Origin: Clostridia bacterium
GTDB lineage: Bacteria; Bacillota; Clostridia; Christensenellales; Borkfalkiaceae
Length of the DNA: 60,624 nt
Direction: 5' to 3'
Assembly: GCA_017507005.1 (NCBI GenBank)
Contig: JAFWBT010000013.1
Coordinates: forward strand, 1-60,624
Part shown: positions 4,978 to 59,627 of the stretch, piece after piece
Numbering within the stretch: the stretch's first letter is position 1
Layout: each line of letters starts with the position of its first letter
Notes under the pieces: generated by a model
The model's database searches: none
Seen by the model: the letters and a program-made list of their open reading frames with translations, nothing else
What the model was told of the DNA's origin: nothing
Position numbers and translations under genes: made by a program

Positions 4978-5000
4978 GGGGCAGGTATGCGTTGAACGCA
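4978..5000 (+). repeat. dispersed motif GGGGCAGGTATGCGTTGA, exact copy
   Basis: Exact 18-bp copy (4978-4995) extended by ACGCA, 44 bases after the tlpA-like stop and before the MFS gene. The same 18-mer with the same AACG extension recurs at 30868. Confidence 0.85.
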
Positions 5001-5023
5001 AAAAACACGAAAAAGAGGGCGTT

Positions 5024-6364
5024 ATGGAAAAGGGTGTGTTTGGAAAAAGAAACTGGTGGATTCTCATTGTTTTCGGGCTGATTGGGCAGTTGGCTTGGTC
5101 GGTGGAAAATATGTATTTCAATCTGTTCGTTTTCGATAGGGTGAGAGAGAATTTAGACGCGATTACGTTGATGGTACAGCTGTCGGGCGTGACGGCGACG
5201 GTGGCGACGCTGATTGCAGGCACGCTGTCCGATAAGATAGGCAATCGTCGGCGGTTTATCGCGTACGGCTATATCATTTGGGGCGTTACCGTCGCGCTGT
5301 TTGGTATGCTCAGCGCAAAGAACGTGGCGGCGCTATTAAACACGACGGAGGCGAAAGTAATCGGCGTGACGCTGTTTGCCGTGATTGCAGGGGACTGCGT
5401 GATGACGGTGTTCGGCTCGACGGCGAACGACGCGGCGTTCAACGCGTGGGTGACGGATAACACGAAAGAGGAATTTCGCGGCAAAGTGGAGGGCGTGCTG
5501 TCGGTGCTGCCCCTTATTGCAATGCTGATTGTCGCAGGCGGCTTTGGTATGCTCGTTTCGTGGCTGGATTATCAAGGGGTGTTTTTCCTGCTTGGCGGCG
5601 TGATTTCCGTGTGCGGCGTGGTGGGCGTGTTCGTGATAAAGGACAGCCCTACGCTCGAAAGAAAAGGCATGCTCAAAGACATCGGCTACGGTTTTAAACC
5701 CAGCGTTATTAAGGGCAATCCGTCTCTGTATTTGACGCTGTGTATCGTGGGCGTTTACGGCGTTGCGTGTCAAATTTTTATGCCCTATCTCATTATTTAT
5801 ATGCGTACGTACCTGCATTTTAGCGTGGTGGAATACAGCGTCGTGTTCGGCGCGGCAATCGTGCTGGGCGCGGTGATTAACGTACTGCTCGGCGGCGTGA
5901 CCGACCGTTTGGATAAAGCGAAAACGCTGTATATCGCCTCGGCAATCCTCTGCGTGGGGCTGGCGGCAATGTATTGTATGCGGTTTGAAAATAAAACGGC
6001 GACGCTGATTACGTTTGGCGTGGCGGGGTTCGTGATGATTACGGGCTACATATTCGTATCGGCGCTGTGCGGCGCGCTGACACGTGATTATACGCCGCCT
6101 CGGGACGCAGGAAAGCTGCAAGGCGTGCGTATGGTGTTTAGCGTTTTAATCCCTATGGTGGTAGGCCCGATGATTGGCAACGCCATCAACAAAGCGGCAG
6201 GGCGCGGCACGGTAGGCGGCGCGGACGCTATGACGACGAAATATTTGCCTGCGCCCGAAATCTTTTTGGCGAGCGCAATCGTGTGTTTGATTTTGTTCGC
6301 TTTGATACCCTTGCTCGTGAAAGCGAACGCGAAGAAAAATGCAAAAGGAGGGGGGCAGGTATGA
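5024..6364 (+). CDS. MFS transporter, probably for a sugar or glycoside
   Basis: A 446-residue integral membrane protein with about twelve hydrophobic segments. It starts with a short N-terminal tail and the helix WWILIVFGLIGQLAWSVE. The intracellular loop after TM2 carries the MFS signature GTLSDKIGNRRRFI, and a related GGVTDRLDKAKT occurs in the second half. The fold and the NMYFN segment in TM1 recall sugar-cation symporter-like MFS proteins. Its stop codon overlaps the next gene's start as ATGA (6361-6364), so it is cotranscribed with and translationally coupled to the GH2 glycosidase. This suggests uptake of the glycoside that the enzyme cleaves. The exact substrate cannot be read from sequence. 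Ribosome site: GAGGGCGTT before the ATG. Confidence 0.88.
   Translation: MEKGVFGKRNWWILIVFGLIGQLAWSVENMYFNLFVFDRVRENLDAITLMVQLSGVTATVATLIAGTLSDKIGNRRRFIAYGYIIWGVTVALFGMLSAKNVAALLNTTEAKVIGVTLFAVIAGDCVMTVFGSTANDAAFNAWVTDNTKEEFRGKVEGVLSVLPLIAMLIVAGGFGMLVSWLDYQGVFFLLGGVISVCGVVGVFVIKDSPTLERKGMLKDIGYGFKPSVIKGNPSLYLTLCIVGVYGVACQIFMPYLIIYMRTYLHFSVVEYSVVFGAAIVLGAVINVLLGGVTDRLDKAKTLYIASAILCVGLAAMYCMRFENKTATLITFGVAGFVMITGYIFVSALCGALTRDYTPPRDAGKLQGVRMVFSVLIPMVVGPMIGNAINKAAGRGTVGGADAMTTKYLPAPEIFLASAIVCLILFALIPLLVKANAKKNAKGGGQV
6335..6363 (+). promoter_or_regulatory. ribosome-binding site carrying a dispersed-motif variant at the GH2 start
   Basis: The 18-mer AAAAATGCAAAAGGAGGG (6335-6352), followed by GGGCAGGTATG, places AGGAGG and the motif core GGGGCAGGTATG directly on the GH2 start codon. 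The same 18-mer lies at 11236-11253 before the dus start, which is also followed by a CAGGTATG core. Confidence 0.7.
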
Positions 6365-8097
6365 GATTAAGGACAAATTACACCGTGGGCGACGTGCCGC
6401 ATAGCGAGCATCCGCGTCCGCAGGCTATGCGCGAAAATTGGCTGTGCCTGAACGGAAAATGGGATTTTTATAAGACGGATAGTCTAGACAATCGCAGTAA
6501 CGCGGGCGTGATTATCGTGCCCTTTTCCCCTGAAACGGAAAACAGCGGTATCGCGGAAGGTTTCGTACTGCGTAGCGGTGAGAAATTGGTATACAGCCGT
6601 AAAATGAACTTGACATCGGCGCTGTTGCAGGGCCGCACGGTGTTGCATTTCGACGCAGTGGATAGCGAGTGCGAAGTGTTTGTCAACGGCGCAAAGGCAG
6701 GCGGACACAAGGGCGGTTTTACGCCGTTCGAGCTGGATATCACTTCGCTCGTAAAAGAGGGCGAAAACGAACTCACGCTAACGTGTGTGGACGACGGCAC
6801 GAGAAACAGCGGCGCGCGCGGCAAACAGAGCGATTTGCGCGGTGGGATTTGGTATACGCCGCAGAGCGGGATTTGGCAGAGCGTTTGGCTGGAGAGTATG
6901 CCCAAAACGTATATTAAAGACCTGCGTATCACCCCTAGCGCCGAGGAAAAAATTGTGACGATTTGTTCGGATAGCGACGGTGAGGAGCAAGAAATCGTTG
7001 TCTACGACGGCGAAAAAGAGATTTTGCGCGAAAAATACGTAGACGAAGTGACGCTGCGATACGATTTCCTTTTATGGTCGCCCGAGCAGCCAAAGCTGTA
7101 CGATTTCGTCGTTACGAACAGTGCAGGGGATTGTGTGCGCTCGTATTTTGGCGTGCGGTCGTTTGGAAAAACGTTGGATAAAAACGGTGTTGCGCGGCTG
7201 ACGCTGAACGGGAAACCGTATTTTTTCAACGGCGTGCTTGATCAAGGGTATTGGTCGGACGGGATGCTGACCTATCCTTGCGACGAGGCGGCGGTGGACG
7301 AGCTGCGGCTGTTAAAGGATATGGGCTTCAACACCGTGCGAAAGCATATTAAAATAGAGCCGATGCGTTGGTATTATCATTGCGATCGTCTTGGGCTGAT
7401 CGTTTGGCAGGATTTTGTCAACGGCGGCGGCGAGTATAAATTTACGCACGTGGCGTTGCAGCCGTTCTTGGGTTTCAAGCACCGCGACGACGATTACGCG
7501 TATTTCGCAAGAGAGGATATGCAGGGCAGGATAGAGTTTATGCAAATGGTGGACGAAATCCTCGACGGGCTGTATAATTGCGTGAGCGTTGGCGTGTGGG
7601 TGCCGTTCAACGAGGGCTGGGGGCAGTTTGATTCGGCAGGCGTGACGGAATACGTCCGTAGCAAGGACGACACGCGCATTATCGATTCGGTGAGCGGCTG
7701 GCACGACCAAGGCGTTGGCAAGACGGAGCTTTTGAGTATGCATACCTATTACACGCCGCTGAGAGTGCCTAAGGACGAGCGTCCCGTTGTGTTGAGTGAA
7801 TTTGGCGGCTATTCGATGAAATGTGGGGGGCATGTATTTGATGAAAGCAAAGAATTCGGCTATAAAAAATTCAAAACGCAGGAAAAATTGACGGCGGCGC
7901 TTCGGAAATTGTACGAGAAAAAACTGTTGCCGTTGATTAAAAAAGGCTTGTGCGGCTGTATCTATACGCAGGTGTCCGACGTGGAAGAGGAAATCAACGG
8001 GCTGGTGACGTACGATAGAAAAATCGTGAAAGTGCCCGTTGACGTAATGGCGGATTTGAGCGCAAAGCTGTACGCAGAAATGGAAGAAATCCGTTGA
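6361..8097 (+). CDS. glycoside hydrolase family 2 enzyme (beta-galactosidase/beta-glucuronidase-like)
   Basis: A 578-residue cytoplasmic glycosidase. The order is the GH2 N-terminal sugar-binding domain (NGKWDFYK...YSRKMNL...FDAVDSECEVFVNG), an Ig-like domain (about 190-285), then a TIM barrel (YFFNGVLDQGYW...LLKDMGFNTVRKHIK). The acid/base is Glu418 in FNEGWGQ and the nucleophile is Glu480 in LSEFGG. The start at 6361 is chosen because AGGAGGGGGG lies just upstream and the ATG overlaps the MFS stop; an earlier in-frame start at 6283 lies deep inside the MFS gene. No signal peptide is present, so the substrate must be imported, presumably by the coupled transporter. GH2 subfamily and linkage specificity are not determined. 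Confidence 0.93.
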   Translation: MRLRTNYTVGDVPHSEHPRPQAMRENWLCLNGKWDFYKTDSLDNRSNAGVIIVPFSPETENSGIAEGFVLRSGEKLVYSRKMNLTSALLQGRTVLHFDAVDSECEVFVNGAKAGGHKGGFTPFELDITSLVKEGENELTLTCVDDGTRNSGARGKQSDLRGGIWYTPQSGIWQSVWLESMPKTYIKDLRITPSAEEKIVTICSDSDGEEQEIVVYDGEKEILREKYVDEVTLRYDFLLWSPEQPKLYDFVVTNSAGDCVRSYFGVRSFGKTLDKNGVARLTLNGKPYFFNGVLDQGYWSDGMLTYPCDEAAVDELRLLKDMGFNTVRKHIKIEPMRWYYHCDRLGLIVWQDFVNGGGEYKFTHVALQPFLGFKHRDDDYAYFAREDMQGRIEFMQMVDEILDGLYNCVSVGVWVPFNEGWGQFDSAGVTEYVRSKDDTRIIDSVSGWHDQGVGKTELLSMHTYYTPLRVPKDERPVVLSEFGGYSMKCGGHVFDESKEFGYKKFKTQEKLTAALRKLYEKKLLPLIKKGLCGCIYTQVSDVEEEINGLVTYDRKIVKVPVDVMADLSAKLYAEMEEIR

Positions 8098-8221
8098 CTA
8101 TTTTCTAAAATTTCATAAATAAGAACGTCTTTTTCGCCACGCTTGGCAAGAAAGGCGTTTTTTTCGTTTGTTTGCGATAGAATTACGTTTTTTCCGCAAA
8201 CTGTGTAAAGGGAGAGGAAAA

Positions 8222-9736
8222 ATGGACGAAAGTAAGACAAAAAACTCGGAAAAGACAACGAAAAAAGCGACAAAGCGCAACGACCAGAGAGCGGAAAAGA
8301 ACGGCAAAGGCAGTTTTTTAAAGGGCGCGGCGTGGATTGCGGCAGGCGGATTTATCGCCAAAGTAATCGGCGCGCTATACCGTATTCCGTTGACAAACCT
8401 CGTCGGCGCGCACGGGCTGGGGCTGTATCAAATGGTGTATCCCGTGTATTGTCTATTGTTGACGGTGTCGGCGACGGGTATTCCCTCGTCGATAGCCAAG
8501 CTGGTTGCCGAGCGCGTCAGCAAAGGGGAATCGGATGCGCCCGTATTCAAGACGGCTATGTGGCTGTTTTTGCTTATCGGATTGTTCGGCACGGCGTTGA
8601 TGGCGATTATCGCGCCCTTTTTAGCGCGCGCGCAGGGCAGTGAGGAAGTGTTAGGCGGCTATTACGCGTTAGCGCCGTCGGTGTTGTTCGTTTCCGCTAT
8701 CTCCGTTTTTCGGGGTTGGTTTCAGGGCAGAAATCGTATGTTTCCCACCGCCCTTTCCGAAATCACCGAACAAGCGGTGAAAGTGGGCTTTGGACTGTTA
8801 TTCGCATACCTGTACCGCACAAATATCCAAAAAGCCGTCGTGTTTTTACTGCTTTCGGTGTCTTTATCCGAGCTGTGCGCACTGATTTTGATGTATATTT
8901 TATATAAACGCGTACATGCCCCCGTCAAAATGAAAAAGGAAGGGGGCATGGTCGAGGTGAAAACGGTGTTGCGGCTGAGTATTCCCGTCACGCTCAGCTC
9001 GATGTTGTTGCCCTTGTCGGGGTTGATTGACAGTGTGTTTGTGCCACGGCTTTTGGGCGCGTACGCCGCCGAGCCGGTGACGCTGTTCGGCTTGTTTTCG
9101 GGCGGCGCGGTGACGATTATCAATCTGCCCGTATCGGTGTGCTACGGTATCGCGGCGGCGAGTATCCCTGCCGTTGCGGCGGCTGCCGCACGCGCAAAAA
9201 CACGCGCAAACAAGGCTGCGTTACCCGACGAAGCGAAGGAAAAGGACGAAATAAACGAAAAACACAACGAAACGAACGTAAAAACAGACGGAAAAATCCA
9301 TAAAAAAAGCCGCAATTCCGTGCGAAAAAAGATAGGTTTTTCGCTGCTGGTAACGGTGGCGGTAGCATTGCCGAGCGCGTTGGGACTGTACGTTCTCGCG
9401 GAGCCTGCCGTCAAAATCGTCTTTCGCAACCTCACGGGCGAGGAGTTGACGACGCTGGTACGGCTGGTGAAGATATTTTCTATCAGCGCGCTGACGCTCT
9501 CTTGCGTGCAAACGCTATCCGCCTGCCTGACGGCGCAGGGCAAACCGCAATACGCCGCTTTTTCTATGCTGATAGCGGTGGCGGTGAAAACGACGTTGTA
9601 CGCGATATGGCTGAAAAATCCTAAAACTTCCGTTTTTGGCTTGGCGCACGCGACAAATATTTGTTATTTGGTTGCGTTTTTGCTCGATTTATTGTATAAT
9701 TTAAGAGTATCCAAAAAAGCAAAACGCAAGGAGTGA
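8222..9736 (+). CDS. MATE/Wzx-type lipid flippase, SpoVB/MurJ-like polysaccharide biosynthesis protein
   Basis: A 504-residue polytopic membrane protein of the polysaccharide-biosynthesis/MviN-like superfamily. A Lys-rich cytoplasmic tail (~38 residues) precedes the first helix, and GALYRIPLTNLVGAHGLGLYQMVYPVY is typical of SpoVB/YtgP/MurJ-like flippases that move lipid-linked cell-wall precursors. A charged ~50-residue insertion (about 9190-9330; Lys/Glu/Asn-rich) lies in a loop between helices in the middle. The start at 8222 is favoured over 8168 because AAAGGGAGAGG precedes it. The mazG gene begins 4 bases after the stop, so they form an operon. Whether it flips lipid II, teichoic precursors or something else is open. 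Confidence 0.85.
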   Translation: MDESKTKNSEKTTKKATKRNDQRAEKNGKGSFLKGAAWIAAGGFIAKVIGALYRIPLTNLVGAHGLGLYQMVYPVYCLLLTVSATGIPSSIAKLVAERVSKGESDAPVFKTAMWLFLLIGLFGTALMAIIAPFLARAQGSEEVLGGYYALAPSVLFVSAISVFRGWFQGRNRMFPTALSEITEQAVKVGFGLLFAYLYRTNIQKAVVFLLLSVSLSELCALILMYILYKRVHAPVKMKKEGGMVEVKTVLRLSIPVTLSSMLLPLSGLIDSVFVPRLLGAYAAEPVTLFGLFSGGAVTIINLPVSVCYGIAAASIPAVAAAAARAKTRANKAALPDEAKEKDEINEKHNETNVKTDGKIHKKSRNSVRKKIGFSLLVTVAVALPSALGLYVLAEPAVKIVFRNLTGEELTTLVRLVKIFSISALTLSCVQTLSACLTAQGKPQYAAFSMLIAVAVKTTLYAIWLKNPKTSVFGLAHATNICYLVAFLLDLLYNLRVSKKAKRKE

Positions 9737-11235: not shown

Positions 11236-11253
11236 AAAAATGCAAAAGGAGGG
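11236..11253 (+). repeat. 18-mer AAAAATGCAAAAGGAGGG shared with the GH2 start
   Basis: Identical to 6335-6352. Here it is followed by TACCAGGTATGCG, a variant of the dispersed motif, so that the ATG of dus (11262) is the ATG of the motif. Confidence 0.7.
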
Positions 11254-11261
11254 TACCAGGT

Positions 11262-12200
11262 ATGCGTTTACGTGCGTTAAAGGTAGGGAACGTAACGATA
11301 GAAAACAACGTGTTTTTAGCGCCGCTTGCCGGGTATACGAACTATGCGTTTCGGCGGCTGTGTAAGGGGTATGGCGCGGGGCTGTGCTATACGGAAATGG
11401 TGAGCGCAAAGGGGCTGAAATACGGCAGTGAGAACACGGAAGAGCTGTTGTATACGGACGAAAACGAGGGATTGACGGCGGCGCAGATTTTTGGCAGTGA
11501 CCCTGCGATTTTGCGCGCGGCGTGCGAGCACGAGAAATTGCAGCCTTTCCCTATCGTGGACATCAATATGGGCTGTCCCGTACCCAAGATTTATAAAAAC
11601 GGCGAGGGGAGCGCGCTGCTCGAAAACCCGATTTTGGCGGAAAATATCGTCAAGGAGTGCGTAAAGAGCGGCAAGATTATCACCGTGAAATTCCGTATCG
11701 GCATCAACGGCGATAACTTGATAACGGAAGAATTTGCGCGGCGTATGGAGGGGGCGGGCGCGAGCCTCATCACCATCCACGGCAGGACGAAGGACAAAAT
11801 ATACGCCGGCGACGTTAATTATAGAGAAATCGCCGCGGCAAAGCGCGCGGTGCAAATCCCCGTGATTGCCAACGGCGGTGTGTTCTCGGATACGGATAGC
11901 GTATGGCTGCTAGAGGAGACGGGCGCGGACGGCGTTATGGTGGCGCGCGCGGCATTGTTTGACCCGCAAATTTTTTGCGCTTTGACAAATACGCCGACGG
12001 AAAATCGGCTGGAAATGTTCCAAAAACAATTAAAATGGACGGGGCAGGTATGCGACGAACGCTTTACGACGGTGTTTATGCGGAAGATGGCGGCGTTTTA
12101 CGTAAAGGGCACGCGCGGCGCGGCAGCGTATAAAGAACGGCTGTTCCAAGCGCAGTCCCCCGACGAGATTTTGGCGATTGCCCAAGAGATATGGGGCTGA
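11262..12200 (+). CDS. dusB: tRNA-dihydrouridine synthase, DusB family
   Basis: A 312-residue flavoenzyme that reduces uridine to dihydrouridine in tRNA D-loops. Visible motifs are LAPLAGYTNYAFRRLC (FMN-binding start of the barrel), NMGCPVPKI with the catalytic cysteine, KFRIGIN, ITIHGRTKD, PVIANGGV and GADGVMVARAA near the phosphate-binding end. The length is near the usual 310-330. The gene follows mazG after 84 bases and ends at a strong terminator. One internal stretch (WTGQVCDER, near 12041-12060) is encoded by a partial copy of the dispersed motif without adding length relative to the family. An AGGAGGG ribosome site precedes the ATG. Confidence 0.95.
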   Translation: MRLRALKVGNVTIENNVFLAPLAGYTNYAFRRLCKGYGAGLCYTEMVSAKGLKYGSENTEELLYTDENEGLTAAQIFGSDPAILRAACEHEKLQPFPIVDINMGCPVPKIYKNGEGSALLENPILAENIVKECVKSGKIITVKFRIGINGDNLITEEFARRMEGAGASLITIHGRTKDKIYAGDVNYREIAAAKRAVQIPVIANGGVFSDTDSVWLLEETGADGVMVARAALFDPQIFCALTNTPTENRLEMFQKQLKWTGQVCDERFTTVFMRKMAAFYVKGTRGAAAYKERLFQAQSPDEILAIAQEIWG

Positions 12201-19905: not shown

Positions 19906-19923
19906 GGGGCAGGTACGCGTTGA
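19906..19923 (+). repeat. dispersed motif, one mismatch
   Basis: GGGGCAGGTACGCGTTGA, preceded by CAAAATGGAC (as at 12041 and 57686) and followed by ACG. It lies just before the hairpin at 19929. Confidence 0.8.
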
Positions 19924-19973: not shown

Positions 19974-22559
19974 TCACTCGTCAACGGGATTCATCATATC
20001 AAAGAACCGTATCAAGAAACCCGAAACGGGGAAGCTTGCTTGCACGATAATAATGATGAGCAATAGCTGTGACAAGATGAGCTTGATATCGCTCCAACCC
20101 GTAAATACGATATCGCCAAGATAGGGCACGGAAATTACGAGAATACACAGCGACGTGACGAATACGAACAAGATAACGCGCACGACGTTGAAAGGCTGAC
20201 AAATACGATACAGCATAACCAGCCCCGTGAACGTGAGCGCAATCATCATCAGCGCGTTATACGCAGGCGTATCCGCGCCGTTTGCGTCGACAAACCCGAA
20301 ATCGTCGGCAAGGGAGGTTTTGTGTACGACGTATAGCGTCATAATCCCCACAGCCATCGTCAATGCGCCGGGTATGGCGCGGCTGAGGACGTAGGGGATA
20401 AATTTGCCCTTGACGCGGTTGGTATTCGGCTGCAAGGACAGCACGAACGAGGGGATTGCACTGACGAACATTTCAAACATCATCATATTGTTCGTTTTGA
20501 AGAAATATTCGCTGCCCAAAAGAATACAAACGGTGGAAAGGATTAGCGTCAGCAGCGATTTCATAATATACAGCGCGGACGAATCCTTGATGTTGTTGAT
20601 AACTCGTCTGCCTTCGTTTACAATCTTGGGCATAGACGAGAAATTGTTGTCTTGCAAAACGAGGTTGGACACGTTACGCGCCGCCTCGCTGCCCGAGGCT
20701 ACGGATACGGCGCAGTCTGCCTCTTTCATAGCGAGGATATCGTTGACACCGTCGCCTGTCATGGCTACCGTGTTGCCCGCTTTTTTAATCGAGCGGATAA
20801 GAATAGCCTTTTGTTCGGGGGTTACGCGCCCAAACACCGTGTACTGATTTGCCGCGTTTTCCACTTCTATCCTCGACAAACCTTCCAAGGAAATGAATTG
20901 CGAGGCGTTTTTAATGCCCGCTCGGCGTGCCACTTCGGATACGGTGACGGGGTTGTCGCCCGAGATAACTTTTACTTCTACTTCGTTTTCTCTAAACCAT
21001 TTAATCGTTTCGATAGCGTCGGGACGGATATTGTCCGCCAACGTGACGATAGCGATTGCCTTTGCGCCCGAGGGGACTTTGTCGCCCTGAATTTGACCTG
21101 TCGCGTGGGCTATCACTAGCACTCGAAGCCCCATTTGCGCGTACTGTTTTACGATTTTGTCGATACGCACGGGCATGGGTTTTAACACGAATTCGGGCGC
21201 GCCCATTATAAACGTACCTTCGCTCTCAAAAGTGACGGCGGAGAGCTTTCTTGCCGACGAGAAGGGGAGCGTTTTGATGGGCTGTAACACCGTGGAGTGT
21301 CCAAAACGTTCGTAGAGCGCGATGGACGTTTGGTTGTTGTCGCTAAGGGAGGAGAGCATCGAGCCGATAATGTCTTCCACGGGGTATTCCGTGGGGTTGT
21401 TCAACAGGATACAGTCGCTCACTTTCATTCTGCCGTCGGTGATCGTGCCCGTTTTATCGAGGCAGAGTACGTTGACGCGCGCCAGCATTTCCAAGGAGTA
21501 CATATCTTGCACCAAGGTGTTGTATTTCGCCATACGCACCATACCGACGGAGAGCGCCACCGTGGTGAGAAGGATAAGCCCCGACGGGATCATACCGATA
21601 ATAACGGACACCGTTTTTTCAATCGTTTCGTTGAGGTCGCCTGCTAATAATTTATCCCACATATTGCCTGCGCCTGCGCCCAAATTTTTATAGTTGGTGA
21701 GGAACATCAGTATGGCAATGGGCACGATAAGAATACCGATTACCTTGATGAACAGGCTGATGGAGTTCATAATTTCGGAGTTCGGGCGTTTGTATTTTTT
21801 CGCTCTTGCGGTGAGTTTGCTTATATACGTTGCCGCGCCGATTTTATCTACGCGCACCGCGATACGGCCGCTGGCGATAAACGAGCCTGCATATAAAAGG
21901 TCGCCGTCCTCTTTTTTGATGGGTACGGATTCACCTGTGAGCAGGGATTCGTTGACTTCCGCCGTGCCTTCCACCGCAACGCAGTCGGCAGGGACTTGTT
22001 GACCTGCGGACAGCAGTACGATATCGTCGAGAACGATTTGGTCGACGGGAATTTCTTGCCGTCTGCCGTCGCGCACGACGTTCGCTATCGGGGAAGAAAG
22101 GATAGACAGCTTTTCAATCTTTAACTTCGCGCGGATTTCCTGCACGATACCGATGGCGATATTGCAAAGGAAGATAGGCACGAATAAAAACTGCGTGGGC
22201 GCGGCTTGCGCAATGAGCAGGGCGAGCGCGGCGATAAGACAGAGCAGGTTGAAGAACGTGCAGATATTACCGATAAAAATACTGCGATAGGTTTTCGAGT
22301 ATTTCGGCGCGCTGACGTTGACGTAGCCCTTTTCCATACGCTCGGTTACTTGTTTGGTGGACAAGCCCTCGTTGGCGCGCGCGTTCAGCCGTTTTAGATT
22401 GGGCAGTGGCGCAGGCGGCTCGTCCAGTTTTTCTTTTTTAGAGAACAGCGAGGCGATAATGCCTTTTTGTTCTTCTTCCTCGGGGAGCGCTTCTTCCGAA
22501 AGCTGCATAAATTCCGTTTCGGGAAGCGCGGAGGAGGGTTTCTTTTCTTTTTGATCCAT
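19974..22559 (-). CDS. P-type cation ATPase, CtpE-like
   Basis: An 861-residue ion pump. An unusual acidic, low-complexity N-terminal extension (~70 residues) precedes the usual start (GLSTKQVTERMEKGYVN). Motifs in order: TGES actuator loop (NESLLTGESVPI), the TM4 segment IPSGLILLTTVALSVGMVRMAK, the phosphorylation site CLDKTGTITDGRM, the nucleotide domain (GAPEFVLK) and the hinge MTGDGVNDILAMKEADCAVSV, then further C-terminal helices. The TM4 sequence and the LVQD..SLEMLARV block resemble mycobacterial CtpE, a calcium-linked pump, more than PMCA or Mg ATPases. Substrate assignment is an inference. It is monocistronic, with its own promoter and terminator. Confidence 0.92.
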   Translation of the reverse strand: MDQKEKKPSSALPETEFMQLSEEALPEEEEQKGIIASLFSKKEKLDEPPAPLPNLKRLNARANEGLSTKQVTERMEKGYVNVSAPKYSKTYRSIFIGNICTFFNLLCLIAALALLIAQAAPTQFLFVPIFLCNIAIGIVQEIRAKLKIEKLSILSSPIANVVRDGRRQEIPVDQIVLDDIVLLSAGQQVPADCVAVEGTAEVNESLLTGESVPIKKEDGDLLYAGSFIASGRIAVRVDKIGAATYISKLTARAKKYKRPNSEIMNSISLFIKVIGILIVPIAILMFLTNYKNLGAGAGNMWDKLLAGDLNETIEKTVSVIIGMIPSGLILLTTVALSVGMVRMAKYNTLVQDMYSLEMLARVNVLCLDKTGTITDGRMKVSDCILLNNPTEYPVEDIIGSMLSSLSDNNQTSIALYERFGHSTVLQPIKTLPFSSARKLSAVTFESEGTFIMGAPEFVLKPMPVRIDKIVKQYAQMGLRVLVIAHATGQIQGDKVPSGAKAIAIVTLADNIRPDAIETIKWFRENEVEVKVISGDNPVTVSEVARRAGIKNASQFISLEGLSRIEVENAANQYTVFGRVTPEQKAILIRSIKKAGNTVAMTGDGVNDILAMKEADCAVSVASGSEAARNVSNLVLQDNNFSSMPKIVNEGRRVINNIKDSSALYIMKSLLTLILSTVCILLGSEYFFKTNNMMMFEMFVSAIPSFVLSLQPNTNRVKGKFIPYVLSRAIPGALTMAVGIMTLYVVHKTSLADDFGFVDANGADTPAYNALMMIALTFTGLVMLYRICQPFNVVRVILFVFVTSLCILVISVPYLGDIVFTGWSDIKLILSQLLLIIIIVQASFPVSGFLIRFFDMMNPVDE

Positions 22560-24140: not shown

Positions 24141-24165
24141 ACGGGCATACCGTGTACGCGATGAA
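24141..24165 (+). repeat. dispersed motif, diverged variant
   Basis: ACGGGCATACCGTGTACGCGATGAA resembles the form at 40011 (GGGCATACCAGGTACGCGTTGA). It lies between serS and its terminator. Confidence 0.45.
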
Positions 24166-25316: not shown

Positions 25317-26624
25317 ATGACGAATTTGCCTGCGGCGTTTATAGAAAAAATGAAAAAACAGCTTCCTGAAAACGAGTGGGAGGCTTTTTTTGCCGTATAT
25401 GAAAAAAAGCCCTTTAAGGGGGTGCGAATTAACCCGTTGAAGGGGGGCAGGTATGCGTTGAGCGCGTTATTGCCCTTTTTAGGCGAACGTGTTGTGTGGG
25501 AAGAAAACGGGTATTATACGGCGGAAGAAAAGCTCGGTTCGTCGCCGTTCCACGCGGCAGGGCTGTTCTATTCGCAAGAGCCGTCGGCAATGTGCGCCGC
25601 GCCATTATTAGAGGCGAAAGAGGGGGAGAGGATACTCGACCTTTGCTCTGCGCCCGGGGGCAAGGGCACACAGCTGGCTTGTCAAATGAACGGCAAGGGC
25701 ATAATCGTCTTGAACGAGCCGGTGTTTGCGCGCGCGAAGATATTGTCGCAAAACGTAGAGCGTTTGGGGATAAAGAACGCCGTGGTGACGAGTGAGTTGC
25801 CCGAAGCGTTGTCGGCGCGCTTTGGCGGATATTTTGATAAAATCCTCGTGGATGCGCCCTGCTCGGGCGAGGGTATGTTCCGTAAAAATGCCGAGGAGGC
25901 TTTGACGGAGTGGAGTGAAGAAAACGTGGCGCTGTGCGCCGAACGGCAGAAATATATACTGCACGAAGCGACGAAAATGTTGCGTGTGGGCGGCAGGCTG
26001 GTGTATTCCACCTGCACCTTTGCGGAGGAGGAAGACGAGGGGCAGGTATGCGATTACCTTAAAAATCATCCGCAAATGCGCCTGATAAAGCAGGAAAAAT
26101 TGTATCCGCATAAGGTGGACGGCGAGGGGCATTTTGCGGCGCTGTTTGAAAAGGTGGAGCGAGATAGCGAGTGGGATACGCGGCTGAAAGAGATAAAGCC
26201 GTGGTGCAGCCGTGACGCGGAAAAGGCGTATCGGGATTTTGAAAAAACCGTATTCAAGGAGAAGTTTGCCTATCGTTTGCACGAGGTAAACGGTATGCTG
26301 TACGAATTACCGCGTGAGGTATTCGATTGGAAAGGCGTGCAGGTACTGCGTGTGGGCGTGCGGCTTGGCGAAGTGAAAAACGGCAGATTGGAGCCGTCCC
26401 ATTCTTTGGCATTGTGCGCGCGAAAGGAAGATTGTGTGAACGTTGTCGATCTTACGACAGAGGACGCGCGGTTGGAAAAATATTTGCGCGGCGAGGTGAT
26501 AGAGGACGCGACGGTGAGGAACGGTTGGTGCGTTGTTTGCGTACACGGGTACCCCGTAGGCTGGGGAAAAGCGGTAAACGGCGTGGTGAAAAATCATCTG
26601 CCTAAGGGTTTAAGAAAGAATTAA
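25317..26624 (+). CDS. rsmF: 16S rRNA m5C methyltransferase, RsmF/NOL1-NOP2-Sun family
   Basis: A 435-residue SAM-dependent methyltransferase for cytosine-5 of rRNA. The motif I loop is ILDLCSAPGGKGTQLA, motif IV is VDAPCSGEGMFRK and motif VI is LVYSTCTFAEEEDE, giving the two conserved cysteines of this family (catalytic in TCT, release in APC). After ~residue 290 comes the RsmF-type C-terminal region with a PUA-like end (HGYPVGWGKAVNGVVKNHLPKGLR). Two copies of the dispersed motif lie in frame: an exact one at 25444-25461 (encoding GRYAL) and a partial one at 26038-26051 (encoding GQVCDY). Neither lengthens the protein visibly. Ribosome site: AAGGAGATC. Confidence 0.94.
   Translation: MTNLPAAFIEKMKKQLPENEWEAFFAVYEKKPFKGVRINPLKGGRYALSALLPFLGERVVWEENGYYTAEEKLGSSPFHAAGLFYSQEPSAMCAAPLLEAKEGERILDLCSAPGGKGTQLACQMNGKGIIVLNEPVFARAKILSQNVERLGIKNAVVTSELPEALSARFGGYFDKILVDAPCSGEGMFRKNAEEALTEWSEENVALCAERQKYILHEATKMLRVGGRLVYSTCTFAEEEDEGQVCDYLKNHPQMRLIKQEKLYPHKVDGEGHFAALFEKVERDSEWDTRLKEIKPWCSRDAEKAYRDFEKTVFKEKFAYRLHEVNGMLYELPREVFDWKGVQVLRVGVRLGEVKNGRLEPSHSLALCARKEDCVNVVDLTTEDARLEKYLRGEVIEDATVRNGWCVVCVHGYPVGWGKAVNGVVKNHLPKGLRKN
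25444..25461 (+). repeat. dispersed motif, exact copy inside rsmF
   Basis: An exact GGGGCAGGTATGCGTTGA within the coding frame, encoding Gly-Arg-Tyr-Ala-Leu. Confidence 0.85.
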
Positions 26625-30867: not shown

Positions 30868-30890
30868 GGGGCAGGTATGCGTTGAACGTG
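30868..30890 (+). repeat. dispersed motif, exact copy between the TSUP halves
   Basis: The exact 18-mer (30868-30885) followed by AACGTG, starting seven bases after the stop of the first TSUP gene and preceded by ATA as at 4975. Confidence 0.85.
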
Positions 30891-34969: not shown

Positions 34970-34975
34970 AACTCA

Positions 34976-35061
34976 ACGCGTACATGCTATACGGCAACAA
35001 AAATGCGATTCAACGCGTACATGCCCCACGCGTATTTAAAAATGAGGGGTACAGGTATTAG
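34976..35061. repeat. cluster of three dispersed-motif variants upstream of the MreB-like gene
   Basis: Two inverted copies CAACGCGTACATGC (34977-34990 and 35012-35025, the latter continuing CCC) and one direct variant GGGGTACAGGTATTAGATGA. The first copy begins eight bases after the maf stop codon. Confidence 0.6.
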
Positions 35062-40010: not shown

Positions 40011-40087
40011 GGCATACCAGGTACGCGTTGAAAGGTAAAAAATAAAACGGTGACAGCAAAATGCTGCCACCGTGTACGCGTTGAAAT
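40011..40087 (-). terminator. yfcE terminator flanked by two dispersed-motif variants
   Basis: ACGGTGACAGC aaaat GCTGCCACCGT (40047-40073) forms a strong hairpin, with TTTTATTTTT after it on the minus strand. On each side stands GTACGCGTTGAAA (40021-40033 and 40075-40087), the core of the dispersed motif. The left copy continues back to GGGCATACCAG. Confidence 0.8.
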
Positions 40088-44395: not shown

Positions 44396-45466
44396 GTGTT
44401 TAAAAAATTAGACGACATCAAAGCGCGTTACGAATTTCTATCTGAAAAACTGTCCGATTCGGCAGTCATCGCAGACATGGGTACGTGGCAGCGCTATTCC
44501 AAGGAACAATCCGACCTGACGGAAACGGTGGAAAAATACGTCGAATACCAGTCGAAAGAAAAAGAAATGAACGACGCTTTTGCGCTGGCGGAAATCGAAA
44601 CGGACGCCGAAATGAAAAAAATGCTCCTCGACGAGGGCTACGCCTGTAAAGAGCTGTTGGCAAAGCTGAAAGACGAACTCAAAATCCTGCTCCTGCCCAA
44701 GGACAAGAACGACGAAAGGGGCTGTATTTTAGAGGTGCGCGCAGGCACGGGCGGCGAAGAAGCGGCGTTGTTTGCAAGCGAGCTTTGCAGAATGTACCAA
44801 AATTATTGCGCCGCGCATAAACTGCGTGTGGAGGAGATTGACGTCAACGCCACGGAGCTGGGCGGTGTGAAAGAGGCGGTGTATAACGTCACGGGCGTCG
44901 GCGCGTACAAATTGTTGAAGTTTGAGAGTGGCGTACATCGTGTTCAACGCGTACCTGCTACCGAGACACAGGGCAGAATCCACACTTCGGCGGCGACGGT
45001 GGCGGTGTTGCCGGAGGCGGAAGAAGTGGAGGTGGAAATCAGCGACAAGGATATCCGTATCGACATTTTCCACTCGGGCGGCGCAGGCGGTCAAAACGTC
45101 AACAAAGTGGCGTCGGCGGTGCGTATCACCCATTTCCCGACGGGGATTGTCGTCACCTGCCAAGACGAACGTTCGCAGTTGAAAAACAAAGAACGCGCGT
45201 TCAAGGTGCTGCGTTCGCGTATTTATGATTTTTATAACGGGCAAAACGCCAAGGCGCGTGAGGAAAACCGCCGCAGTATGGTCGGCACGGGGGATCGTAG
45301 CGAGCGTATTCGGACGTATAATTTCCCGCAAAGCCGCGTCACCGACCATCGCATCGGGCTCAGCCAGTATAATTTGGACGCTTTTATTATGGGCGATATC
45401 GACAGTATGGTGGAAGCGTTGACGATTGCGGATAGAGAATCGTTGCTCGCCTCGTCCGAAGACTAA
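44396..45466 (+). CDS. prfA: peptide chain release factor 1
   Basis: A 356-residue class I release factor reading UAA and UAG. Domains follow the family order: a helical N domain, the codon-recognition region with RVPATETQGRIHTSAATVAVLP, and the peptidyl-transfer domain HSGGAGGQNVNKVASAVRITH with the GGQ at 231-233. The end RVTDHRIGLSQYNLDAFIMGDID is typical RF1. The start is GTG at 44396, behind GAGGAGG. The gene lies downstream of the PrmC fusion, whose substrate is this GGQ glutamine. Confidence 0.97.
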   Translation: MFKKLDDIKARYEFLSEKLSDSAVIADMGTWQRYSKEQSDLTETVEKYVEYQSKEKEMNDAFALAEIETDAEMKKMLLDEGYACKELLAKLKDELKILLLPKDKNDERGCILEVRAGTGGEEAALFASELCRMYQNYCAAHKLRVEEIDVNATELGGVKEAVYNVTGVGAYKLLKFESGVHRVQRVPATETQGRIHTSAATVAVLPEAEEVEVEISDKDIRIDIFHSGGAGGQNVNKVASAVRITHFPTGIVVTCQDERSQLKNKERAFKVLRSRIYDFYNGQNAKAREENRRSMVGTGDRSERIRTYNFPQSRVTDHRIGLSQYNLDAFIMGDIDSMVEALTIADRESLLASSED

Positions 45467-52825: not shown

Positions 52826-52866
52826 AGGCGTACAGGTATGCGTTGAACGATACCTATACGCCTTTT
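52826..52866 (+). terminator. terminator hairpin formed by a dispersed-motif copy
   Basis: AGGCGTA-CA-GGTAT / ATACC-TA-TACGCCT closes a loop GCGTTGAACG, then TTTTCC. The 5' arm and loop are the motif variant GTACAGGTATGCGTTGAACG. Confidence 0.75.
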
Positions 52867-52891: not shown

Positions 52892-53698
52892 ATGGGCTTT
52901 TTACAAAAGTGGGCGAAACGAATACGCAAGCGCGCGGCGACGCACGGCTACGTTTGCGATAGCTGTGGGGCGGAAGTGTTTGAATATCCCTCGCGGCGAC
53001 TTTGCGCGGTGTGCGAGGGCAAAATGCGCCCAAATACGGCCAAAACTTGTGAAAAATGTGGCAGGCAAACGGTGACAGAGGGCGTTTGTCTGCTTTGCAA
53101 GCAAAAATTGCCCGCCTTTACGAGAGGATTTTCACCCTTTGTTTATCGTGGGCTTTCGGCGGCGCTTGTCAACCGTATTAAGAACGGGAAACGGCGTTTG
53201 GCGTATTATTTTGCCGAAAAGATGGCGGAGTATTGGATAGAGAAATATCCAAACGTAGAGCGATTTGCCATACCCATGTCTGCGTTGAACGCTGAATCGG
53301 ACGAAAAAACGGATGCGGAAACGTTGTTGATATTGCCCGTGCCCATGACGGAAAAGGGCGTGAAAGAGAGGGGATTTAATCAGGCGAGCGAGCTTGCCGA
53401 GATTTTAGTGGAAGCTTTGCAAGAGAAAGGGTATGCGGCGGAGCTGGACGTTCAAACGCTACAAAAGCGTAAAGAAACGTCGCCGCAAAAGAAAATGTCT
53501 TTTTTCGAGCGCGCGGAAAATATCGCCGGTGCATATCACGTGCATAAACGCGCGCTGTGCAGGGATAGGACGATTTTGCTCGTGGACGATATTATGACGA
53601 CGGGCGCGACGGGGAACGAGTGCGCGGAAAGACTGCTTGGTGCAGGCGCGAAAGAGGTGATACTCCTCACCGCCGTTTCCTTGCCCGAACGCCGTTGA
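52892..53698 (+). CDS. comFC: ComFC-like amidophosphoribosyltransferase-family competence protein
   Basis: A 268-residue protein. The N-terminal Cys-rich zinc ribbon has CDSCGAEVFEYPSRRLCAVCEGKM and CEKCGRQTVTEGVCLLCKQK. The rest is a PRTase fold: FSPFVYRGLSAALVNRIKNGKRRLAYYFA, LILPVPMTEKGVKERGFNQASELAEILV (PV-P..K...RGFNQ family block), RKETSPQKKMSFFERAENIAGAY and the PRPP loop ILLVDDIMTTGATGNECA. It is longer than usual ComFC (~230) mainly by a segment around IPMSALNAESDEKTDAETL, whose DNA (53268-53292) resembles a dispersed-motif variant. ComFC supports DNA uptake in transformable bacteria; no comFA is next to it. Confidence 0.92.
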   Translation: MGFLQKWAKRIRKRAATHGYVCDSCGAEVFEYPSRRLCAVCEGKMRPNTAKTCEKCGRQTVTEGVCLLCKQKLPAFTRGFSPFVYRGLSAALVNRIKNGKRRLAYYFAEKMAEYWIEKYPNVERFAIPMSALNAESDEKTDAETLLILPVPMTEKGVKERGFNQASELAEILVEALQEKGYAAELDVQTLQKRKETSPQKKMSFFERAENIAGAYHVHKRALCRDRTILLVDDIMTTGATGNECAERLLGAGAKEVILLTAVSLPERR

Positions 53699-54697: not shown

Positions 54698-54841
54698 AAT
54701 ATGTGTTTCTCCTGTGATGCGTTTTGTGTCTTAAAAAAGAGAGCCTCTTTTAAAAAGCGTACAATTTGCTGGAAAACAGTATAATAGAAAAAATGCGCCT
54801 CGTCAATAGGAGAAAAAGCCCAAAAAAGGCAAAAATGAGCA

Positions 54842-54858
54842 GGGCAGGTATGCGTTGA
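54842..54858 (+). repeat. dispersed motif, exact over 17 bases
   Basis: GGGCAGGTATGCGTTGA, preceded by AAAATGAGCA (compare AAAATGAGG before the copies near 35041 and 52826). Confidence 0.85.
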
Positions 54859-56297: not shown

Positions 56298-57017
56298 ATG
56301 AAGAAGTATAAATATCTACTATTCGACGCCGATCATACGCTCGTCGATTATAACAAGGACGAGATAGCCGCATTTCGCGCCGTGTACGAAGAAATCGGCG
56401 TGCCCGTCAGCGACGATTTATTGCTGTATAGCCACCGCTTATCTGAAACAGTGTGGACGGAGGCGGGCTTGTACGACGTGCACAGCGAAAGAATCCAGCA
56501 ACAGTATCACGTCTTATACCGCTCGCACGTCAAGGGCGTGTTCGAGCGTGTCTTTGAAAAATACCCCTGCAACGCCGATGCAGCGGCTCTTGGCGAGCTG
56601 TTTTTAAAACGCTTGGAGACGCGAGGAAACTTATACGACGGCGCGGAAGAAGTGTTGGCGGCTTTATCGCAAAAGACGGGGGGCAGGTATGCAATCAGCA
56701 TCGCCACAAACGGCATTATCCCTATCCAAACAGGCAGACTGCAAGCGATAGAAAAATACGTTGACAAGGTGTATATTTCCGAAAGCGTGGGCGCGATAAA
56801 GCCCTTGCCTACGTTTTTTGAAAGGGTGCTTTCCGATATGGGCGCAAAGCGCGAGGAGTGCTTGATGATAGGGGATTCGCTTTCTTCCGATATCGTGGGG
56901 GCGAAAGGCGCAGGGATTGACGCCTGCTGGTACAATCCAAAAAAGAAGGCAAACGAGAGCGGTGTTACGCCTGATTTTGAAATTACGGATTTGCGTGAAT
57001 TGTTGGCGATATTATAA
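56298..57017 (+). CDS. HAD-superfamily hydrolase, YjjG-like 5'-nucleotidase
   Basis: A 239-residue phosphatase. The nucleophile motif is FDADHTLVDYN (Asp-x-Asp), motif II is SIATNGI, motif III is the Lys in GAIKPLPTFFERVL and motif IV is CLMIGDSLSSDIVGAKGAGID. The DADHTL start and the TNG motif place it with YjjG/noncanonical pyrimidine nucleotidases, which dephosphorylate odd nucleoside monophosphates. A dispersed-motif variant GGGGGGCAGGTATGC (56679-56693) lies in frame (GGRYAI). The ATG at 56298 is preferred to the longer frame from 56214, which covers the repeat region. Confidence 0.9.
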   Translation: MKKYKYLLFDADHTLVDYNKDEIAAFRAVYEEIGVPVSDDLLLYSHRLSETVWTEAGLYDVHSERIQQQYHVLYRSHVKGVFERVFEKYPCNADAAALGELFLKRLETRGNLYDGAEEVLAALSQKTGGRYAISIATNGIIPIQTGRLQAIEKYVDKVYISESVGAIKPLPTFFERVLSDMGAKREECLMIGDSLSSDIVGAKGAGIDACWYNPKKKANESGVTPDFEITDLRELLAIL

Positions 57018-57023: not shown

Positions 57024-57047
57024 CGCACCCATGTATGCGTTGAGATA
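57024..57047 (+). repeat. dispersed motif variant after the HAD gene
   Basis: GCACCCATGTATGCGTTGAGA, beginning about eight bases after the stop codon. It resembles CATACCCATGTCTGCGTTGAACG in comFC. Confidence 0.55.
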
Positions 57048-57063
57048 CAAATTAAGATAAAAG

Positions 57064-57635: not shown

Positions 57636-57685
57636 GACGCGCGCGATTTAAGGCAAATAAAAAATGCAAAAAATTAAAAATGGAC

Positions 57686-57786
57686 GGGGCAGGTATGCGT
57701 TGAGAATAAAAATAATGTGGATAGATGTTATGCGTTTGAGGGTTTTAAAACGTAAAAATCCGACCGAATTTACTCGGTCGGACGTA
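57686..57786 (+). repeat. ~100-bp repeat led by the exact dispersed motif (copy A)
   Basis: GGGGCAGGTATGCGTTGA, then AATAAAAATAATGTGGAT, a TTTGAGG..TTTAAAA..GTAAAAATCCGAC stretch and the hairpin TCCGACCGA / TCGGTCGGA ending in CGTACG. Copy B at 59534-59627 aligns along the whole length with small indels. Confidence 0.75.
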
Positions 57787-57802
57787 CGTATTATGATGAC
57801 GA

Positions 57803-57836: not shown

Positions 57837-57916
57837 CTAGTTCGGATTATGCTTCATTACATAAAAAGTATTTAGTATTATTGCCTAAATTCGAAAAATT
57901 CATCCATAAAACAAAA

Positions 57917-57960
57917 TAGGCCGAACATCTTACCAACGGTAAAGAGGTTCAACCTATTAA
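57917..57960 (-). terminator. terminator 3' of the tRNA-Leu fragment
   Basis: On the minus strand AATAGGTTGAAC...TTTACC gtt GGTAAG...GTTCGGCCTATT forms a long hairpin followed by TTGTTTTATGG, directly downstream of the tRNA 3' end. Confidence 0.65.
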
Positions 57961-57964
57961 GACT

Positions 57965-58019
57965 TGGTGCCGCTGACCGGACTTGAACCGGTACGGTCGT
58001 TAAACCGAGGGATTTTAAG
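57965..58019 (-). pseudogene. 3' fragment of a tRNA-Leu gene (integration-site core)
   Basis: The minus strand gives CTTAAAATCCCT (anticodon loop with TAA and 3' anticodon stem), a class II variable arm (TCGGTTTAACGACCGT), the T-arm ACCGGTTCAAGTCCGGT, the acceptor half CAGCGGC, discriminator A and encoded CCA. Sequence 5' of the anticodon loop (GCAAGTAC...) cannot form the 5' anticodon stem, D-arm or acceptor. The identity therefore breaks at the anticodon loop, as expected for the displaced 3' piece left when an element integrates into a tRNA gene. Confidence 0.85.
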
Positions 58020-58864: not shown

Positions 58865-59272
58865 ATGGCAACGGAAAAGAAAAAATATGCGTTTTATACA
58901 TCGCCGCAGCTGATGGAAAAAATCGAGCAATTGTACAAGTTGGACGGCTGTACAAGCAAGACGGAATTCATTGAGCGAGCGGTGGAATTTTATTGCGGAT
59001 ATCTAACTGCGGACAATTATAAAGAGTATTTTCCTAATGTAATCGTCTCGACTATGAAGGGCACGCTGAATAGCTTGGAAGACAGAATGGCTAAGTTATT
59101 GTTTAAGTTCTCGGTAGAGCAAGCGATGATGATGCACGTGCTTGCATATACGTGCGAAATTGATGAAAATACGCTGAATAAGTTGCGCGGGTACTGTGTA
59201 ATGGAATGTAAACGTATCAACGGCGCAGTAACGTTTGATGATGCGGTTAGATTCCAAAAGAGTAGCGACTGA
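58865..59272 (+). CDS. ribbon-helix-helix-type DNA-binding protein of a mobile element
   Basis: A 135-residue protein. The N terminus (KKYAFYTSPQLMEKIEQLYKLDGCTSKTEFIERAVEFYCGYL) fits an RHH fold: a short beta-strand, then helices with TSKTEFIERAVEFY. A C-terminal helical domain of ~80 residues follows (FSVEQAMMMHVLAYTCEIDENTLNKLRGYCVMECKRING). Such proteins are common next to mobilisation or replication modules of Clostridial elements and bind direct repeats; the four GGGGTCAAA sites lie just upstream. The ribosome site AAGGAGGTGA is perfect. No relaxase, ATPase or integrase follows in the window. Confidence 0.8.
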   Translation: MATEKKKYAFYTSPQLMEKIEQLYKLDGCTSKTEFIERAVEFYCGYLTADNYKEYFPNVIVSTMKGTLNSLEDRMAKLLFKFSVEQAMMMHVLAYTCEIDENTLNKLRGYCVMECKRINGAVTFDDAVRFQKSSD

Positions 59273-59354
59273 TGAGGTGGTTCATTTTGTATTGGTATAG
59301 TAAACTCATAGGAATGTGAAATAAAAGAAGAGAGTATACGGATAAAACAATTAT

Positions 59355-59384
59355 AAAGCCTACGGGAGGTGTTCCGTAGGCTTT
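59355..59384 (+). terminator. terminator after the RHH gene
   Basis: A perfect 11-bp stem AAAGCCTACGG / CCGTAGGCTTT with loop GAGGTGTT. The T-run is short. Confidence 0.75.
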
Positions 59385-59533
59385 ATGGTTAGATAAAAGT
59401 TGATTGGAATGATGCGGTGGTTATTTTTTAATAGTAAGTAGATTTTTGCACAAATGGCTAACGCTGCCCTGCTGTAAATTGGAAGTGCCAATTTTGCACT
59501 GTTGGGGGAATGAAAATAGTTGTTTGACGGGGA

Positions 59534-59627
59534 GGGCAGGTATGCGTTGAAGATAAAAATAATGTGGATTTTACATTTGAGGATTTAAAGGCATAAAAAA
59601 TCCGACAGAGTTAATTCTGCTGGACGT
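59534..59627 (+). repeat. ~95-bp repeat led by the dispersed motif (copy B)
   Basis: GGGCAGGTATGCGTTGA, AGATAAAAATAATGTGGAT, TTTGAGGATTTAAAGGCATAAAAAATCCGAC and the imperfect hairpin TCCGACAGA...CTGCTGGA ending CGTGC. It aligns with copy A (57686-57786) and abuts the truncated DUF1273 gene. Confidence 0.75.

Follow-up and report, generated by a model that had tools for sequence, protein, structure and literature searches.

A helically phased DNA motif spread through a genus of uncultured gut Clostridia: a possible signal for DNA packaging or exchange

When one short DNA word recurs throughout a stretch of bacterial chromosome, is it a signal, and if so, what reads it? The question is raised by 60,624 nucleotides (nt) of a Clostridia bacterium (assembly GCA_017507005.1, contig JAFWBT010000013.1), a stretch that we call the window, in which the 18-mer GGGGCAGGTATGCGTTGA has 16 matches at up to three mismatches, compared with a mean of 0.06 and a maximum of 2 in 100 dinucleotide shuffles. 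We argue that the motif is almost certainly a DNA signal recognised by protein and maintained across species, whatever its use. The best explanation of that use, to which we give slightly less than an even chance, is a packaging or exchange signal: recognition would take place on the donor's supercoiled chromosome, the signal would spread through biased gene transfer, and its mode of action would be that of the pac site of phage SPP1.

The window belongs to a draft genome (G000; G, C, L and g mark our handles for genomes, contigs, loci and genera) of 1,557,667 bases in 33 contigs, 71% complete. The original prediction, made from the window's letters, took a genome-wide excess over controls as the measure of a functional family, and such an excess is present: 156 matches at up to three mismatches, against 4 for the reversed pattern. 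A weight matrix was then fitted iteratively to the window plus stretches of four further contigs, 445,877 bases in all, so that the matrix statistics rest on 29% of the genome, with home-made gene calls. It finds 176 sites of at least 11 bits, compared with 12 when the matrix is reversed, and 22 copies of at least 18 bits in the window; among the over-represented words of the same 446 kb, the motif's own 10-mers and 12-mers rank top by z-score. The motif is a genuine, non-chance and orientation-biased family.

The site extends beyond the 18-mer, which forms its core. On the left, a W-tract (-16 to -13) and AAAA (-9 to -6) are followed by N, G, a, G, G (CG-n-GG), and the left half takes one of two forms, GGGG or (N)TAC/CAC. 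The right half reads CA(G/T)GTAYGCGTTGAA, with G or T and, further along, C or T at its two degenerate positions, and is followed by W-tracts at +23 to +27 and +35 to +38. The core is asymmetric, with some 15 positions above 0.7 bit each; core plus A-tract exceed 30 bp, and the phased flank described below adds more than 200 bp. The two left halves interchange at one orthologous place, where our genome has TACCCATGTACGCGTTGA (C16:48828) and a relative (L072) has GGGGCAGGTACGCGTTGA (TACCCATG.. versus GGGGCAGG..). Outside the core nothing is conserved except AT phasing, whether in the 176 matrix sites or in an alignment of 297 sites. The minimal reading frame ATG-CGT-TGA that had been proposed within the core does not survive this description: position 10 is C in 54% of the 176 copies, so that the ATG is destroyed, and 13 of the 47 strong genic copies are antisense. 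Overlapping copies occur at two places: a near-perfect hairpin of two inverted copies at G000:C16:105391-105423, whose + copy is common to L069, L075 and L168, and a similar pair at C11:22152-22184.

Around the core the AT content oscillates on both sides, an AT/GC phasing that extends about 140-180 bp each way, or some 300 bp in all. We describe it from 297 sites of our own genome and its relatives, a set that includes orthologous copies from several species. AT peaks fall at about -84, -73, -61, -50, -40/-37, -26, -15 and -7 on the left, and at about +25, +36, +48, +60, +71, +83 and +94 on the right; the best period in a fine scan is 11.55 bp on the left and 11.65 bp on the right (10.75 to 12 in single intervals). 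Measured over intervals of 60 bp, phasing power is 61 times noise at -120..-60 and 14 times at -180..-120, and, on the other side, 47 times at 80..140 and 11 times at 140..200. Beyond 200 bp in either direction it seldom rises clearly above noise; a single interval (-600..-540) reaches 6 times noise, which we take as chance. Anchors that have the same near-flank AT pattern but no core (9,339 of them) give a far amplitude of 0.002-0.009, compared with 0.057-0.069 at the sites, and 3,701 AAAACG anchors give 0.006-0.009. When our own genome is considered alone (95 sites), all four intervals exceed all 300 shifted nulls; for its genic sites (n=37) three of the four lie above the null, the interval 80..140 being the one that does not. 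Sites of 13-18 bits are likewise phased, and thus many weak sites are real.

A period above 10.5 bp is commonly taken as the pitch of negatively supercoiled DNA (PMC4132750), although that reading is disputed (PMC7537859). The phasing suggests recognition on supercoiled or wrapped chromosomal DNA, and the phased AT tracts would, to judge from their sequence, make the site intrinsically bent.

Orthologous genes allow the DNA of the motif to be compared with the DNA beside it. We aligned 113 loci of relatives, mostly at 65-85% identity, to our own contigs. The relatives' loci were chosen for holding the exact motif, and retention was counted from their sites towards our genome, whose contigs were not selected by motif position alone. 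Across 34 aligned sites, our genome agrees with the relatives at 89% of the informative core positions and at 72% of the flanks; at third codon positions the core is 92.7% identical (96 cells) and the flanks 52.9% (2,207 cells). Since third-codon identity is so far above that of the flanks, we conclude that the motif is maintained at the DNA level, by selection or drive acting on the DNA itself. Of 44 relatives' sites of at least 18 bits, 29 also reach 18 bits in our genome, and one antisense genic site (C7:106407) is common to five relative loci (L064, L108, L114, L119, L140). The comparison of orthologous loci, which the original prediction had proposed, also finds copies present in one species and absent from another. 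In genes, 16 of 22 absences are without gaps (both directions counted, as pairs of places and not independent events), and hence gain and loss there proceed mostly by substitution; the intergenic absences have gaps in 6 of 6 cases and decide nothing on insertion.

Genes cover about 89% of the 446 kb, and yet only 47 of the 95 sites of at least 20 bits are genic, so that intergenic DNA is enriched in sites. At 18 bits or more the mean spacing is 3.4 kb and near-Poisson (coefficient of variation 0.87). There are 11 close pairs of sites; many copies lie just behind genes, and the distance to gene starts takes no fixed value among the sites. With the leading strand inferred from GC skew, sites of at least 16 bits divide into leading and lagging as 52/20 within genes of the leading strand, 9/4 within genes of the lagging strand and 42/11 in intergenic DNA; with the threshold at 18 bits, the division is 56/15 for form A and 35/12 for the less G-rich form B. 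The polarity is only about 3:1, and copies occur on both strands. Because the leading-strand excess holds whatever the strand of the gene, the orientation bias follows replication, not transcription. The earlier statement that nearly all good copies lie on the + strand, the direction of most genes, is therefore true of the window, but what the copies really track is the leading strand: on contigs C7 and C10, which have the opposite skew, they are mostly on the - strand.

The motif is present in close relatives, where the original prediction had proposed to look for it: 54 of 56 congeners carry between 6 and 160 matches at up to two mismatches, and the other two (G001 and G002) have none. Copy number thus differs more than 20-fold among congeners, in drafts of unequal completeness. 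Elsewhere in the family and order (64 genomes), the highest counts at the same threshold are 7 (G059 and G064) and 5 (G118). Here the motif takes the form of dialects, CATGTCCGCGATGA in G064 (genus g9) and CATGCCYGCGTTGA in G059 (genus g4), which differ at core positions 8-10; the G064 dialect has the A-tract and CG-n-GG in the same register. Sites of G064 with a GGG left half (n=35) are phased, at up to 26 times noise, and another G064 pattern (n=15) shows no phasing. For the GC-rich dialect genera fixed patterns were used, since a matrix refined there without supervision came to reflect codon bias. A pattern that covers all dialects has more than 2 matches, among 201 genomes, only in genera g1, g4 (15, 16, 3, 4 and 0 in five genomes) and g9 (15, 4, 2, 1 and 1). 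No comparable word was found in 65-150 kb sampled from each of seven other genera (G061, G062, G063, G066, G068, G069, G071), of which the G068 and G071 samples show other repeats. In the open-access literature the letters of the motif matched only five unrelated fish papers, presumably through primers, and neither such an uptake sequence in Gram-positive bacteria nor a packaging site of a gene transfer agent (GTA) was found; within that literature, the claim that no described family has this consensus holds.

Which machinery might read such a site? Of 29 genomes, only two (G029 and G067) have the pilin N_methyl and prepilin peptidase families, and the T2SSE ATPase exceeds its cut-off in 4 of 29, strongly in those same two and weakly in G068 and G031; all three are absent from the window's own genome. 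Since type IV pili are nearly absent in the genomes tested, the defining feature of the known uptake sequences fails, and the motif is no classical uptake sequence. The two exceptions, G029:C21 and G067:C29, are pilus-type clusters of pilin, prepilin peptidase and ATPase in an otherwise pilus-poor family. ComEC, by comparison, was recognised in 68 of 73 genomes and is missing from none of the 45 searched within the genus (two partial); DprA is present in 28 of 29, and the window itself has a comF-like gene. ComEA was not recognised, since the HhH matches belong to proteins of 400-800 aa, a size that points to Tex and others. Tex itself was considered as a reader: its presumed match, a strong HHH_3 hit in a protein of about 725 aa, is missing in the motif-free G001, G002, G066, G067, G069 and G070, but it was dropped because G061 and G063 have the match and no motif in their sampled DNA. 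In Rhodobacter, recipients of the agent RcGTA need ComEC, ComF and DprA for GTA-delivered DNA (passages of PMC10883770).

The exact pattern occurs in only two viral stretches. One (L172) has no A-tract and is probably a chance match. The other (L173) is a 5-kb piece in which the motif stands directly behind terL and is followed by a small-terminase-like gene and a portal gene. Counterparts of its large terminase (TerL) are present in 54 of 57 genus genomes, mostly as a single copy at 74-83% identity, and in 15 of 16 other family genomes at 61-76%. The GTA-like locus of our own genome (C22; Table 1) has a gene order and position that are conserved across the family, and none of the 10 proteins scanned in and beside it matches a replication or integration family. 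Among the matches listed from 50,697 phage records, the closest TerL and capsid are about 30% identical. The best 80 of 274 viral-contig relatives comprise 41 loci at 54-82% and a remainder at 34% or less, with a gap between; those 41 sit on short contigs (4-19 kb), except for one of 68 kb. In a TerL tree the genus forms one group and G059 branches next to it (100/93 and 99/95); many other forks are open. The locus looks like a domesticated, vertically inherited GTA, apparently one not described for this group. Directly behind its head genes lies a BspA-type leucine-rich-repeat protein of 1106 aa (G000:C22:65172-68492), and similarly long proteins follow the locus in G027, G037 and G068.

We infer a link between the motif and this locus. 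Part of the case is that these genomes have hardly any pili but do have GTA genes, together with the proteins by which GTA recipients import DNA. Under the packaging or exchange explanation, each copy would be one binding site for a DNA-exchange apparatus; core and phased bends together would be the place where a packaging complex of the terminase type engages the donor's chromosome in its negatively supercoiled state, much as bent pac DNA serves SPP1, and the packaged fragments would enter siblings through ComEC, ComF and DprA and then recombine. Since a good site would raise the rate at which the DNA around it is packaged and transmitted, biased gene transfer would let sites build up genome-wide, and with them flanking bases of even slight benefit, as has been proposed for DNA uptake sequences. 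Biased gene transfer produces just such tags, maintained at the DNA level inside and between genes, with dialects and with numbers that vary widely, and a phasing above 10.5 bp, as on supercoiled or wrapped DNA, suggests that recognition takes place in the donor. A more specific version, in which a GTA of gut Clostridia gained sequence-specific packaging, with hundreds of pac-like chromosomal sites accumulated by biased packaging (a molecular drive) and dialects that isolate genera, strikes us as possible but somewhat more doubtful.

Several observations weigh against this explanation. The GTA-like locus does not need the motif, since the motif-free congeners G001 (L181) and G002 (L325) keep it, and it is also found in G061, G062, G063, G066, G068, G069 and G071, whose sampled DNA (65-124 kb) has no motif. 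The two congeners are natural negative controls in the search for a reader. The candidate small terminase (TerS) has no N-terminal DNA-binding domain, its N-termini being short and its match confined to the last 118 positions of phrog_309; another reader of a packaging site would thus be needed, and the missing domain is held to explain the random packaging of RcGTA. One such reader might have been the TerS C-terminus, which is K/R-rich and AT-hook- or H1-like in 9 of 11 genus genomes read (G000, G001, G014, G023, G027, G035, G037, G039, G046), as well as in L173, and missing in G002, G011 and the other genera read. This tail does not follow the motif, however: G059 and G064, which carry dialects, lack it, as does G011, whereas the motif-free G001 has it. 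Nor is the locus a hot spot of sites, with 3 in about 9 kb in our genome and 0 to 9 per 16-20 kb in ten congeners. Flank and core scores are weakly correlated overall (rho 0.20, p 0.03) and uncorrelated among genic sites, and the GC-rich dialect genus g4 (G059) is without clear phasing (patterns with n=27, 28 and 8). Reported GTA packaging, finally, looks random and is thought to be so, and no packaging site was known for these agents, according to passages of PMC6854486. It is this evidence that keeps our confidence in the packaging or exchange explanation just below the halfway mark.

A similar footprint might be left by a DNA uptake sequence that is independent of pili, for which a surface or membrane receptor beside ComEC would prefer motif-bearing free DNA, and uptake bias would spread the motif. 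The excess, the intergenic enrichment, the dialects and the turnover by substitution resemble the known uptake sequences, as do the AT tracts beside the core (passages of PMC12616744), and ComEC and DprA are available; but the pilus genes are confined to two genomes, no ComEA was recognised, the period of about 11.5 bp suits supercoiled or wrapped DNA better than relaxed free DNA, and the leading-strand bias is left unexplained. We consider such a receptor unlikely. An architectural site, at which DNA gyrase or a nucleoid or segregation protein would wrap the DNA around the core and delimit supercoil domains, would suit the two-sided phasing, the many copies just behind genes and the orientation of about three in four copies along the leading strand. 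Strong gyrase sites of E. coli are wrapped, with a symmetric, two-sided helical AT/GC phasing over 130 bp at a period of 10.75 bp (passages of PMC6379681). The gyrase motif is degenerate, however, whereas some 15 positions are strong here, and our phasing covers about 140-180 bp per side rather than about 65, at a longer period; moreover, the motif is missing in two congeners, its number varies greatly, and its dialects differ within the core. An architectural role is thus improbable too, if a serious competitor.

The remaining candidates fare worse. Chi and KOPS (FtsK-orienting polar sequences), guides of recombination or segregation, are polar sites of 5-8 nt. The original prediction was reminded of them by the G-rich core with GGGCAGG, and the leading-strand bias, which holds whatever the gene strand and for the less G-rich form as well, is a further resemblance. 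The likeness is not borne out: the core plus A-tract and the long phased flanks are far longer, the polarity is weaker than that of KOPS, and two congeners do without the motif, so that a guide of this type is very improbable. Even less credence is due to a mobile or REP-like (repetitive extragenic palindromic) interspersed repeat, or to the regulon of a transcription factor. Copies are indeed dispersed, many are intergenic, some are closely paired, and the intergenic absences all have gaps; on the other hand, most genic absences are gapless, genes hold about half of the strong copies, in either orientation, nothing beyond the core but AT phasing is conserved, and there is no fixed distance to gene starts. 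Thus, of the suggestion that the motif is a protein- or RNA-binding element or a small interspersed repeat, probable protein binding stands and the repeat is disfavoured.

How the motif compares with known systems can be stated feature by feature. With the uptake signal sequences (USS) of Pasteurellaceae and the DNA uptake sequences (DUS) of Neisseriaceae it shares an excess across the genome, inside genes and between them, occurrence in both orientations, dialects specific to clades and maintenance at the DNA level; with USS it shares AT-rich flanks, and with DUS a UGA stop in one reading frame (passages of PMC3630211). It differs in its lower density, its leading-strand bias, its Clostridia host and the near absence of type IV pilus genes, and also in its flanks, since USS have two AT regions on one side within 32 nt (passages of PMC12616744). 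With pacL-pacC-pacR of SPP1 it has in common what appears to be intrinsically bent DNA around the site, here predicted from the phased AT tracts. The TerS of SPP1 wraps bent pacL like a nucleosome, and its oligomers bracket the cleavage site; but it is said to read structure, not sequence (all in passages of PMC4856287), whereas here hundreds of chromosomal copies share a strong core. Measured against a pac or GTA packaging site, a packaging locus in the same genomes, a defined core and phased AT tracts are all present, and a small terminase with a DNA-binding domain is missing. Our locus shares with RcGTA and with FpGTA of Faecalibacterium (passages of PMC12946183) a host-locked, syntenic arrangement of about 9 kb, with TerL, TerS without a DNA-binding domain, portal, putative scaffold and capsid, and by description it resembles FpGTA I (same source), ours being known from its genes; the motif has no counterpart among the reported features of GTAs. 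GTA-like packaging is reported by PMC12946183 for some Christensenellaceae as well.

Since every known family examined fails on a tested feature, we regard the motif as a kind of its own, whose mechanism may prove to be a variant of the uptake-sequence principle. Scattered by the hundreds through uncultured gut bacteria, the copies look like self-tags, by which a machine for exchanging DNA, possibly a virus since tamed, would recognise its own DNA. According to passages of PMC12616744, short genomic tags that separate self from foreign DNA are restricted to Neisseriaceae and Pasteurellaceae. The motif would add a third such genome-wide tag, one that occurs in gut Clostridia with hardly any pili, brings with it more than 200 bp of phased bends and forms dialects; it would mean that bacterial gene exchange had evolved self-recognition outside pili. 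If the packaging reading is true, the motif would be a packaging code spread over a host genome, the first of its kind, and if a GTA is responsible, the host genome would have been overwritten with the packaging code of its own domesticated virus.

The copies of the window are collected in Table 1. The four exact copies and the one-mismatch copy at 19906 are present as first described, and the two 17-of-18 copies begin at 54841 and 59533, one base before the positions first given. The variants first listed exist as well, several of them 1-4 bases away (26039, 52829, 56680, 57026, 34973 -, 35010 -, 40014, 11253), except that the one at 35046 is weak and absent from the 176 matrix sites. The matrix also recovers copies that had been overlooked (8905 -, 44944 -, 24147 +, 53271 +, 54271 -).

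Table 1. Copies of the motif in the window, with associated genes and the GTA-like locus of the same genome; positions are those of the window unless a contig is named.
Feature	Position	Strand	Score or evidence
Exact consensus copy, intergenic	4978..4995	+	27.0 bits
Variant copy	6352..6369	+	20.5 bits
Genic copy, antisense to gene; orthologous place in L122 is GGGGCAGGTACGCGTTGA	8905..8922	-	24.8 bits
Form B copy (GTACCAGGTATGCGTTTA)	11253..11270	+	22.3 bits
Genic copy; orthologous place in L122 without motif, no gaps	12041..12058	+	23.7 bits
One-mismatch copy, intergenic	19906..19923	+	27.4 bits
Weak genic copy	21938..21955	+	18.0 bits
Form B copy (ATACCGTGTACGCGATGA)	24147..24164	+	19.5 bits
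Exact copy inside RsmF-like methyltransferase gene (25317-26624), in-frame reading GGRYALSA	25444..25461	+	27.0 bits
Second copy in the same RsmF-like methyltransferase gene	26039..26056	+	23.1 bits
Exact copy, short intergenic gap	30868..30885	+	27.0 bits
Copy ATAGCATGTACGCGTTGA	34973..34990	-	24.5 bits
Copy GGGGCATGTACGCGTTGA, direct repeat of the 34973 copy at 37 bp	35010..35027	-	27.6 bits
Form B copy (ATACCAGGTACGCGTTGA)	40014..40031	+	24.0 bits
Genic copy, antisense	44944..44961	-	25.8 bits
Weaker copy, immediately upstream of comF-like gene	52829..52846	+	16.0 bits
comF-like gene	52892..53698	+	weak double zinc ribbon and PRTase matches
Copy TACCCATGTCTGCGTTGA inside comF-like gene	53271..53288	+	18.9 bits
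Genic copy, common to loci L071 and L099	54271..54288	-	21.6 bits
17-of-18 copy	54841..54858	+	25.7 bits
Genic copy	56680..56697	+	19.3 bits
Copy CACCCATGTATGCGTTGA	57026..57043	+	23.0 bits
Exact copy, intergenic	57686..57703	+	27.0 bits
17-of-18 copy	59533..59550	+	25.7 bits
GTA-like locus: TerL, TerS, portal, putative scaffold, capsid, further head genes (loci L054, L055, L281)	G000 C22:55799-64729		gene order conserved in the family

Two further features of the window may be recorded. An Rfam scan gives a single match, a T-box leader (RF00230, 39656-39902, - strand, 104.7 bits), which is unrelated to the motif. At 45959-48742 the window encodes a protein of 927 aa with no Pfam match, which has 21-bp tandem repeats of the Val-Ser-Ser-Glu-Glu type near its N-terminus (46076-46282).

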